Assembly: GCA_030678995.1 (NCBI GenBank)
Contig: JAUXTQ010000034.1
Span: 54,127 to 118,126, forward strand
Reading direction: 5' to 3'
Source: Caulobacter sp.
GTDB lineage: Bacteria; Pseudomonadota; Alphaproteobacteria; Caulobacterales; Caulobacteraceae
DNA: 64,000 nt
In this document: positions 61,159 through 64,000 of the stretch, piece after piece
How the letters are laid out: every line of letters begins with the position of its first letter
Numbering within the stretch: position 1 is the stretch's first letter
Program-made: the position numbers and the translations under genes
The notes under the pieces: generated by a model
Databases searched by the model: none
Seen by the model: the letters and a program-made list of their open reading frames with translations, nothing else
Told to the model about the DNA's origin: nothing

Positions 61159-61770
61159 ATGACCGAGCGAGTCGACACCATCATCGAGAGCATTCGGGCG
61201 CTTGAGCAGGAACTCGAGGAGGAATTCGCCAAGGCCCAGGCCGGTCTCAGATTCGGGCTGGAACACGGCCGGGCGCGCTTCGAGACGGAGGTCATCCGCC
61301 GTCACCATCAACTGAAGACCGGGCTGGCCCGCTATCTGGCGCGGGCCAACCCGCTGGTCGTGCTGACCGCGCCGGTGATCTATTCGCTCATCGCGCCGTT
61401 CGTGATCCTCGACCTGTGGGTCTCCCTCTACCAGGCGATCTGTTTCCGCGTTTACCGCATTCCGCAGGTCAGGCGCAGCCGGTACGTCGTCTTCGACCGG
61501 TCGGCGCTGGCTTATCTGAACCTGATCGAGAAGTTCAACTGCGCCTACTGCTCCTACGGCAATGGCGTGGTCGCCTATGCGCGCGAGATCGCCAGCCGCA
61601 CCGAGCAGTACTGGTGTCCGATCAAGCATGCGCGCCGGGTCCTGGGCGCCCACGACCGCTACAGGGGCTTCGCCGACTATGGCGACGGCGACGCCTATGC
61701 CGAAGCGCTCAAACAGGCCCGCGCCAGGGTCCGGGCCACGCCGGACGACGCGCCGGACCCGAGGGCCTGA
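61159..61770 (+). CDS. Hypothetical membrane protein with CxxC motif
   Basis: Coiled N-terminus, hydrophobic hairpin, KFNCAYCSYGNGVVAYAREIASRTEQYWCPIKHARR. Confidence 0.8.
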   Translation: MTERVDTIIESIRALEQELEEEFAKAQAGLRFGLEHGRARFETEVIRRHHQLKTGLARYLARANPLVVLTAPVIYSLIAPFVILDLWVSLYQAICFRVYRIPQVRRSRYVVFDRSALAYLNLIEKFNCAYCSYGNGVVAYAREIASRTEQYWCPIKHARRVLGAHDRYRGFADYGDGDAYAEALKQARARVRATPDDAPDPRA

Positions 61771-61830: not shown

Positions 61831-61874
61831 GCGGATGTGGCGGAACTGGTAGACGCACTGGATTTAGGTTCTGA
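61831..61874 (+). tRNA. 5' half of tRNA-Leu(UAG), no 3' half found (interrupted gene / att site)
   Basis: GCGGATGTGGCGGAACTGGTAGACGCACTGGATTTAGGTTCTGA: acceptor 5' strand, D-arm, anticodon loop TTTAGGT; no TpsiC arm or CATCCGC 3' strand in position. Confidence 0.75.
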
Positions 61875-62070
61875 CCAGTCTATTAAATTTCTAAATAAAA
61901 ACAGCTGATTACGACGTGAGAAGAATTGCGTGTGTCCAGGTTTGTGTCCAAAAGTTCGAGTTAAATGCGGCATCGCATCGCTGCACGATGGGCGGAAGAA
62001 ATGGGTGCATGAACTGGTTCGCTGAAACGCCTTCATCATGAAGCGGCTACGCGCTCCGTTGCTCCAAAAC

Positions 62071-62121
62071 GATAAGCTATAGGTTATCAAGACGCCCGAT
62101 ATTTATAACCCATAGGTTATC
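62071..62121. promoter_or_regulatory. Duplicated operator-like pseudo-palindromes
   Basis: GATAAGCTATAGGTTATC (62071-62088) and TATAACCCATAGGTTATC (62104-62121), 14/18 identical, 33 bp apart. Confidence 0.5.
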
Positions 62122-62259
62122 GTGGAGGCTGCGTAGCGGCAGGCGTCGTCTGCCCTGTGCAACTGGGCGGTCGGTTTAGACATGCCGCAAAACATCTAGT
62201 CTGGCTTAGCGTATCGCGGCATCCGCAAACCGCCGTGTCGTAGCGATGGCGAGCGGCAT

Positions 62260-63402
62260 TTACAGGATGTCGGCAATCTCCAATGAGGAAGCTGGCTCCG
62301 CCGCGATGTTGAGGTGATAGCGTGTCGCTTTATTGATGCCGGCGCGTGTCAACGCGCCCATGGTGACGAGCGCGGCCAGGTCGCGCGTCGCCGTGGCTGG
62401 CGGCGAGGCCGTGATCTTCATGTAGTTGGCGGCGCTCAAGCCGCCGAGGAAGCCCTCCGGCCCCGCTGCGAACAACCGCAGTAACGCCTTTTCCTGACGC
62501 GGGTTTAGCTGACGGCCGAGGCGACTGAGCAGGTGCGACTTCTCAAGAATAAATTCAACCTGACGCAAGGTGCGCTGCTGCGCCTCGATAGTTTTGGCGG
62601 CGAACCAGAGCAGCCAGTCAGTGATTTCCAGCTCGCGGTGCGCGCGCTCAAGCTCGGTATAGTAGGTCTTGCGGTGTTGGAGCAGCGTGCCCGCCATGCC
62701 GGTGATGACCGGTGCGGTCAGCCCCTGAGCGAGGATCTTTTCGCTAACGGCGCGGCCAACGCGACCGTTGCCATCTTCAAAGGGGTGGATGCTCTCGAAC
62801 CAAAGATGCGCGATGCCCGCGCGGGTGATGGCGGGCAGCGGGGCTTCCCCCTTGGGGGCGCTGCGTTGCAGCCAATCCCAGAAGCGCTGCATTTCACTGG
62901 CGACCTGCGACGAAGGGGGGGCTTCAAAATGCACCTTGGGATCATGCAGCGCGCCCGAGACAATCTGCATGGGGTCGGTGTGGGTACGGTAGCAGCCGAT
63001 ATCGTGCAAGTCGGTCCTGCCGTTGGTGATGAGTTGGTGCCAGCGGAATAGCGTCGCCTCGGTGAGCGGGACGGACGCCTGTTCGTAAAGATCGACCATC
63101 ATTTCCGCGATGCCGGCCTCGGCGGGCGACGCGCGACGATGATCGCCTGCCAACCCTAGGTGCCGACGGATAGACGACTGAACGCTGTCGCGGTCGAGCG
63201 GCTCTCCCTCGATCGCCGAGGTGTCCACCGCCTCGTGACTCATAAGCTCGATGGTGAGGGCGTTACGCTCGGTGGCGTCGAGGTGTTTGGCCGTGCCAAT
63301 GAGCACGCCTGCACTCTCGATAAAGAGCGCCTCGGCGCGCATGAGTTTGCGCTGATCCCAAGTGAATTCGGGCCAGGCTTCCTGCTGCCAGTTCCACGTC
63401 AT
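62260..63402 (-). CDS. Fic-family protein (DUF4172-like N-terminus, C-terminal HTH-like region)
   Basis: HPFEDGNGRVGR Fic motif; N-terminal TSAIEGE matches the class II inhibitory [ST]xxxE[GN] motif. Confidence 0.95.
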   Translation of the reverse strand: MTWNWQQEAWPEFTWDQRKLMRAEALFIESAGVLIGTAKHLDATERNALTIELMSHEAVDTSAIEGEPLDRDSVQSSIRRHLGLAGDHRRASPAEAGIAEMMVDLYEQASVPLTEATLFRWHQLITNGRTDLHDIGCYRTHTDPMQIVSGALHDPKVHFEAPPSSQVASEMQRFWDWLQRSAPKGEAPLPAITRAGIAHLWFESIHPFEDGNGRVGRAVSEKILAQGLTAPVITGMAGTLLQHRKTYYTELERAHRELEITDWLLWFAAKTIEAQQRTLRQVEFILEKSHLLSRLGRQLNPRQEKALLRLFAAGPEGFLGGLSAANYMKITASPPATATRDLAALVTMGALTRAGINKATRYHLNIAAEPASSLEIADIL

Positions 63403-63456
63403 GATCGATATATAGGCGATTTATCGATCAAAATCCAGCTAAATGATGATCGATAA
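63403..63456. promoter_or_regulatory. Inverted repeat upstream of fic
   Basis: TTATCGATC (63421-63429) and GATCGATAA (63448-63456), with an additional ATCGATA next to the start codon. Confidence 0.55.
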
Positions 63457-63803
63457 GCGGGGCGCTTATCAATCAATACCTCGAATATTGCGCGTGGAGG
63501 CGCGCGTCTAAACGAGGGAGCGGAGGCGAAACGAGTCTGCGCGGACGCGCTAAGCTTCCAAGCTGGCTCCTAAAGTAGATTGGCCCTCTCAAAAACAAGT
63601 CGCCAAGGCGAAAGCCTTTCCATCTTTTGAAATAGACTGCGTCCTCCTCGAACACGCGAGTTCGATCAAAATGGGCTCAAAATAGCATTTTCGCGTTGGA
63701 GTTTGTGTCCAAAATTACTTCATTGAATCTATTGAACTAATTTAACACGAAAAATTGTATGCACTTGCGTAGATGAACGTAAGTAACTAAATACATTGAA
63801 TAT

Positions 63804-63848
63804 GCGGGTGTGGCGGAATTGGTAGACGCACCAGATTTAGGTTCTGAC
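63804..63848 (+). tRNA. Second 5' half of tRNA-Leu(UAG), no 3' half in window
   Basis: GCGGGTGTGGCGGAATTGGTAGACGCACCAGATTTAGGTTCTGAC; followed by sequence homologous to that after the first half, not by a tRNA 3' half. Confidence 0.75.
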
Positions 63849-64000
63849 AAGTATATAAAATTTTCCAACAAAAACAGTATATTACAAACCGCCTAAATCC
63901 CGCTGTGTCCAAATGTGTGTCCAGCATGCGTGCCCTACGGCCCAGTGCTTGGCACCGCGCTGTTGAAGAAACGTAAGCGTCCCATTTGGGCCGCCTACTG

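Follow-up and report, generated by a model that had tools for sequence, protein, structure and literature searches.

Tandem tRNA-Leu(UAG) 5' halves in Caulobacter as the probable left ends of stacked integrative elements whose relatives carry a replacement tRNA

The best account of the locus described here is that a family of elements, moved by a tyrosine integrase, splits the only tRNA-Leu(UAG) gene of its host, that its members bring a replacement tRNA with them, as the relatives do, and that a small integrase-less element (element 1) has entered the same site as a passenger. We regard this reading as highly probable. The locus lies at the right-hand end of the window, the whole 64,000-nucleotide stretch of Caulobacter DNA that was analysed.

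Two 5' halves of tRNA-Leu(UAG) start at 61831 and 63804, each running to GATTTAGGTTCTGAC; paired TGTGTCCA boxes stand at +100 and +112 from each start, and the two units are spaced 1973 bp apart, with a single fic ORF between them. This layout, proposed in a sequence-only reading, is confirmed in every detail, and the 'about 89/120' identities counted there by eye prove on recount to be exactly 89 over 120 ungapped nucleotides. Past the tRNA part the units agree at 48/75 positions; the best score anywhere else in the window is 36/75. The five copies of TGTGTCCA in the 64 kb are all on the + strand and all at this locus (61931, 61943, 63704, 63904 and 63916). An intact tRNA at either start would have spoken against that reading; ARAGORN finds no complete tRNA gene in the 64-kb window. 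After the second 5' half comes another P' arm and no 3' half, and as the 118126-bp contig stops where the window stops, the second unit is truncated. A promoter picked out by eye before the 63804 half (TTGCGT-N17-TAAATA) is absent from the consensus-scan listing and is not relied on. The features are as follows:

61159..61770, + strand: host left-flank gene (203 aa) adjoining the target tRNA; a 93% identical protein lies directly upstream of the intact tRNA-Leu(UAG) of G025 (L037), the empty site
61831..61871, + strand: host tRNA-Leu(UAG) 5' half, left part of attL; with the 3' half on contig C63 it makes a full tRNA-Leu(UAG)
61861-61871: common core GATTTAGGTTC of the first 5' half
61872..63844, + strand: element 1, an integrase-less mini-element, 1973 bp core to core; GC 60% against 69% in the host flank
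61931..61938, + strand: P' arm box 1 of element 1 (TGTGTCCA), +68 from the core
61943..61950, + strand: P' arm box 2 of element 1 (TGTGTCCA), +80 from the core
62260..63402, - strand: fic gene (DUF4172 + Fic by Pfam), a SoFic-like candidate for defence cargo (PADLOC SoFic, 4.7e-40)
63704..63711, + strand: a TGTGTCCA box, the only one in element 1's right arm, at -132 relative to the second core (-97 and -86 in autonomous elements)
63804..63844, + strand: second tRNA-Leu(UAG) 5' half, whose sequence (GCGGGTG / CCAGA) is of the type of a different host and which sits in foreign, AT-rich DNA; core at 63834-63844
63845..64000, + strand: P' arm at the left end of element 2, truncated where the contig stops
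63904..63911, + strand: P' arm box 1 of element 2
63916..63923, + strand: P' arm box 2 of element 2

Within the genus, 3 of 75 genomes contain a 5' half followed by TGTGTCC at this spacing, and no other genome does among the 398 Caulobacterales and 399 Sphingomonadales sampled. The absence from about 800 other genomes, together with the fixed geometry at ten loci (below), rules out a chance repeat. The tandem halves might still have arisen in assembly, from strain variants wrongly joined within a metagenome bin, given that the contig ends in the second unit and the assembly is fragmented (67 contigs, 89.5% complete). This we consider very improbable: the two units share no long exact repeat able to cause a false join, either of them alone fits the family geometry, and single units of the same geometry are found in complete or named isolate genomes.

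A tyrosine integrase and a tRNA 3' half had been predicted downstream, and both are present, on another contig of the same genome (C63; the window contig is C52). C63 carries a relative of the family integrase; outward from it come paired boxes (-97/-86), the core, a 3' half (...ATTTAGGTTCCAGCGCCGCGAGGCG...CATCCGCACCA) and then the trigger factor gene (tig). This is the only tRNA-Leu(UAG) 3' half of the window genome. Its acceptor, CATCCGC, pairs with GCGGATG of the first window half, and the two halves, joined by script, give a normal tRNA-Leu(UAG). Alignment to an empty site, also suggested by the sequence-only reading, is possible within the genus: G025 has one intact tRNA-Leu(UAG), with tig after it, and both its flanks are syntenic, matching the left flank of the window at 88% and the right flank of C63 at 89%. 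Because of this flank synteny and of the halves joining into a normal tRNA, it is most likely that C52 and C63 flank the break in a single gene and that the DNA between them is missing from the assembly. Both contigs end inside element 2, and the element body is outside the assembly; when it was sought there through its relaxase, the sole match belonged to an element at tRNA-Leu(UAA), described below. The assembly (67 contigs, 89.5% complete) holds no intact or functional tRNA-Leu(UAG). C63 stops at the 3' end of the integrase gene, exactly where relatives carry their replacement tRNA, and the window genome's own replacement is predicted to lie in the assembly gap; for element 2 a GCGGCTATGG- or GCGGGCG-type tRNA-Leu(UAG) would be expected.

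The family emerged from a pattern search of genomes for a 5' half with paired boxes, a search that the sequence-only reading had recommended together with a look for an integrase; one lies at the right end of the complete relatives. Family 5' halves occur in Sphingobium, Sphingomonas, Phenylobacterium, Brevundimonas, Caulobacter ginsengisoli and two more Caulobacterales metagenome genomes. The same att geometry recurs across Caulobacterales and Sphingomonadales: left-end boxes stand at +68/+80 from the core in 10/10 cases and right-end boxes at -97/-86 in 8/8 (within 1 nt), which bears out the att-like character claimed for the window units. Four elements are complete, at 20-29 kb: G036 (Caulobacter ginsengisoli), G051, G200 (Sphingomonas) and G202 (Brevundimonas). 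Their order is host 5' half, boxes at +68/+80, cargo, a divergent intact tRNA-Leu(UAG), the tyrosine integrase, boxes at -97/-86, and host 3' half; in three more (G105, G199 and G316) the right end is the same. The shared core, read from junctions, is 11-14 bp, and the tRNA halves break in the anticodon loop at all loci. In the four complete elements the junctions thus consist of the 5' half on the left and the 3' half on the right, and the tRNA is rebuilt at neither.

Other members and matches are less regular. A Phenylobacterium metagenome-assembled genome (G201, L064) contributes one more left end, accompanied by genes that resemble those for a relaxase and a coupling protein; an integrase relative, the tRNA-Leu(UAG) 3' half and an intact gene are all missing from the genome as searched, which is probably incomplete. 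In the Sphingomonas element of G200 the integrase gene appears frameshifted, in two overlapping fragments (L062:12349-13586), and this copy may be immobile. A hit in Bacteroidales (L058) is a chance match adjoining an intact tRNA-Leu(CAA).

Another way to understand the tandem halves, and the one first put forward, is that all family elements carry and resupply the 5' half, so that the functional tRNA is always pushed to the right. As a rule for the whole family this is improbable. It fits a mini-element in G113 exactly, where an intact tRNA stands on the right; G060, too, leaves a displaced 5' half, with a different integrase, some 25 kb from an intact tRNA; and in element 1 a second 5' half follows AT-rich DNA. 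Seven autonomous relatives, however, end on the right in a bare 3' half, their sole intact tRNA-Leu(UAG) being the divergent one beside the integrase, and the second window 5' half leads into a P' arm, not into a 3' half. The stacking of two elements, the first without an integrase, was therefore rightly seen; resupply holds for the G113 mini-element, may work only poorly for that of the window, and fails for the autonomous elements, as these leave the host tRNA split and carry a whole replacement instead.

That an element should carry such a replacement is readily understood in the account preferred here, in which the integrase cuts an unduplicated gene. Exactly one intact tRNA-Leu(UAG) is found in each of the 30 other genomes of the genus tested (30/30), and the disrupted host tRNA is the only tRNA-Leu(UAG) copy. 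In the seven UAG carriers tRNA-Leu(UAG) is matched only by the bare 3' half and by the tRNA that the element brings, never by a canonical copy; an intact element-borne tRNA of the same isotype is present in 7/7 UAG carriers and at four UAA loci. The replacement tRNA-Leu(UAG) is clearly divergent from the host's and usually reads GCGGCTATGGCGG..., with the anticodon loop TTTAGGT the same in both. The stem pair 31-39 is A-T in hosts; six replacements have G-C there and one has T-A, so that the pair is changed in 7/7. As judged from these sequences, the altered pair looks like a target made unrecognisable with pairing kept, and the replacement, probably no longer a target of the integrase, would be immune to it. 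Position 31 is already a G on the element side of the G036 core; discrimination in this case must then rest on position 39.

A sister element in the window genome uses a second leucine tRNA. A related integrase is encoded on contig C9, in an element (G000:C9:7942-42805; L079, L008, L126) that splits the host tRNA-Leu(UAA), with the 5' half at C9:7942, the 3' half, of matching acceptor, at C9:42805, and a MobA/MobL relaxase at C9:21732. The integrase is neighboured by this 5' half and by a tRNA-Leu(UAA) whose anticodon loop contains an intron of 211 bases; the loop is uninterrupted in the host tRNA-Leu(UAA) halves. G301 shows the same UAA pattern with both halves present, and in G582 and G211 an intron-bearing tRNA-Leu(UAA) adjoins the integrase. 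The introns of G301 and G211 score above threshold as group I introns (Rfam); those of C9 and G582 were called by ARAGORN only. No publications that combine group I introns with tRNA integrases were found in the literature searched. A group I intron in the window's own tRNA was considered and rejected: neither half continues as an intron, and introns occur only in the UAA replacement tRNAs. The paired boxes of the C9 element are of the CTAGCACA type. G211 also has an odd tRNA-Leu(UAA)-like gene at the att side (L095:2761-2832); Rfam scores it weakly, at 36 bits, it lacks a proper variable arm, and it may be a junction that is chimeric or has decayed.

What kind of elements these are is read from the complete relatives. 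The family integrase matches a PHROG integrase (8e-26), has near-invariant R235, R346 and Y378 and an LRHT motif, and finds nothing among solved structures at E 0.01; in the integrase tree the UAG-group enzymes form one branch (100/100). A MobA/MobL relaxase and a TraG-like coupling protein (TraG-D_C) accompany it in 4/4 complete elements, and Lamassu- and Gabija-type genes are present in two of the four. Phage structural families are absent from the about 30 element proteins scanned, the integrase has no match in 50,697 phage records, none of its relatives is confirmed in viral contigs, and the plasmids of Alphaproteobacteria hold distant integrase relatives only. A phage origin was rejected on the lack of a phage integrase match and of a confirmed relative in viral contigs. 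Since they have a relaxase and a coupling protein, and an integrase with no phage match, the elements look like integrative mobilizable elements, a class assigned from the complete relatives. Two viral contigs that matched the search pattern are large, each with a tRNA cluster that includes an intact tRNA-Leu and with one chance box.

The mini-elements are harder to place. Element 1 of the window combines a conserved P' arm with a Fic protein and lacks an integrase; where right arms usually have a -97/-86 pair of boxes, that of element 1 has one, at -132. The G113 mini-element (2890 bp; 5' half on the left, intact tRNA on the right) carries a HipB-like antitoxin-type regulator and an adjacent small ORF. 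Its right end is an exact 90-bp copy, made of 44 bp of host upstream DNA and the 5' half, that rebuilds the intact tRNA, and its right arm has no box in the right orientation. The mobility of such elements is doubtful, as neither right arm has the normal boxes. Rebuilding by the window's second 5' half may likewise work only poorly, to judge by two anticodon-stem mismatches that joining the 63804 half to the host 3' half would create. In G060 (C14:9258-34753; L043, L044) about 25 kb separate a displaced 5' half from the intact copy of the same tRNA, and a different tyrosine integrase ends at the displaced half.

A serious rival, if on balance an unlikely one, supposes that element 1 and the G113 mini-element are immobile scars, remnants of autonomous elements that lost the integrase end and were joined to another copy of the tRNA by illegitimate recombination. 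Both lack an integrase, their right-arm boxes are missing or misplaced, and the exact 90-bp repeat of G113, with its 44 bp of host upstream DNA, is what a sister-chromosome event would leave. The window fits less well: the second 5' half and the DNA upstream of it are of another host's type and AT-rich (32% GC at 63660-63803), and so do not derive from a sister copy, and the geometry of the second P' arm is fully conserved.

The preferred reading, with element 1 as a passenger, runs as follows. The window locus is what stands to the left of the break in the host's single tRNA-Leu(UAG) gene, whose anticodon loop has been cut by an alphaproteobacterial family of tyrosine-integrase elements. Element 2, with its left end at 63845 and its right end presumably the one on C63, would be autonomous; its integrase would recombine the 11-14 bp anticodon-loop core and leave the tRNA in two halves, a loss for which its relatives compensate by a complete tRNA-Leu(UAG) beside the integrase, with the pair next to the loop changed. 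Element 1 (61872-63844), with the same P' arm and the same insertion site, was probably mobilised in trans by the integrase of element 2. The simplest order would be that element 2 came first, together with its replacement tRNA, and that element 1 then entered its left junction.

A wider proposition, which we put at even chances, is that non-phage mobilizable elements swap an essential tRNA for a copy of their own, protected in the UAG case by a compensated change at 31-39 and in the UAA case by a self-splicing group I intron within the loop, and that integrase-less passengers with defence-like cargo exploit the site. With the host tRNA cut, only precise excision would remove the element's tRNA without killing the cell; the swap would in that way act as an addiction system.

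Several parts of this scheme have precedents. In the tRNA-dependent lysogeny of actinobacteriophages, shown by experiment (Guerrero-Bustamante and Hatfull 2024, PMC10865867), a tyrosine integrase, as here, uses an attB in a host tRNA, a tRNA of the same isotype is carried by the element, and paired putative arm sites flank attP; the core is about 10 bp, likewise short, and the tRNA is not rebuilt. Unlike those temperate phages of Actinobacteria, the present elements have a relaxase and a coupling protein, and their replacement tRNA either differs at the pair that flanks the core or contains a group I-type intron. tRNA-dependent lysogeny proper belongs to temperate phages, and the complete relatives are not such; by analogy, the elements are tRNA-dependent integration in non-phage elements, the need for the replacement tRNA being putative. 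Closer in host and target are Sinorhizobium meliloti prophages in tRNA gene 026, Leu(UAG), which carry a tRNA-Leu(UAG) (PMC11476347, Table 4) and for which replacement of the inactivated tRNA has been discussed (PMC11476347): the target tRNA, the bacterial class and a replacement of the same isoacceptor are shared. The S. meliloti prophage is likened to Mesorhizobium phage vB_MloP_Lo5R7ANS, whereas the family integrase matches no phage record. Recombination with the 5' part of a tRNA, in reversed orientation, is known and less frequent (Zhao and Williams 2002, as summarised in PMC6563490); the G113 mini-element and G060 resemble such cases in having the 5' part of the target tRNA on the element side, and the autonomous members differ from them in restoring the tRNA from neither part.

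Integrase-less cis-mobilizable elements (CIMEs) accrete beside integrative and mobilizable elements. The family agrees with the latter in its relaxase, coupling protein, site-specific integrase and cargo genes, and with CIMEs in the att-flanked integrase-less neighbour in the same site, accretion and transfer being putative here; the tRNA replacement strategy sets it apart from both. Provisionally, in a search that drew mostly on papers outside subscription, novelty appears to lie in a carrier that is not a phage, in a replacement that is altered or bears an intron, and in the integrase-less mini-elements associated with the family.

If so, a tRNA-dependent strategy described in phages in 2024 is also used by mobilizable elements that are not phages and that bring defence cargo, and this in two alphaproteobacterial orders. 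The altered replacement suggests how such a gene stays beyond the reach of the integrase, and if the intron acts as a shield, selection would have a concrete reason to favour a group I intron within a mobile tRNA gene. As one integrase clade includes relatives that adjoin an intact tRNA-fMet and relatives that replace tRNA-Leu, which of the two strategies came first is testable. In the fMet-associated group it is at the att side that the intact tRNA-fMet stands, as it does beside the integrases of this clade at L104 (G211) and L098-L102. In G211 a second tRNA-fMet lies at the other end of the integrase gene, an arrangement that is a possible intermediate between rebuilding and replacing.
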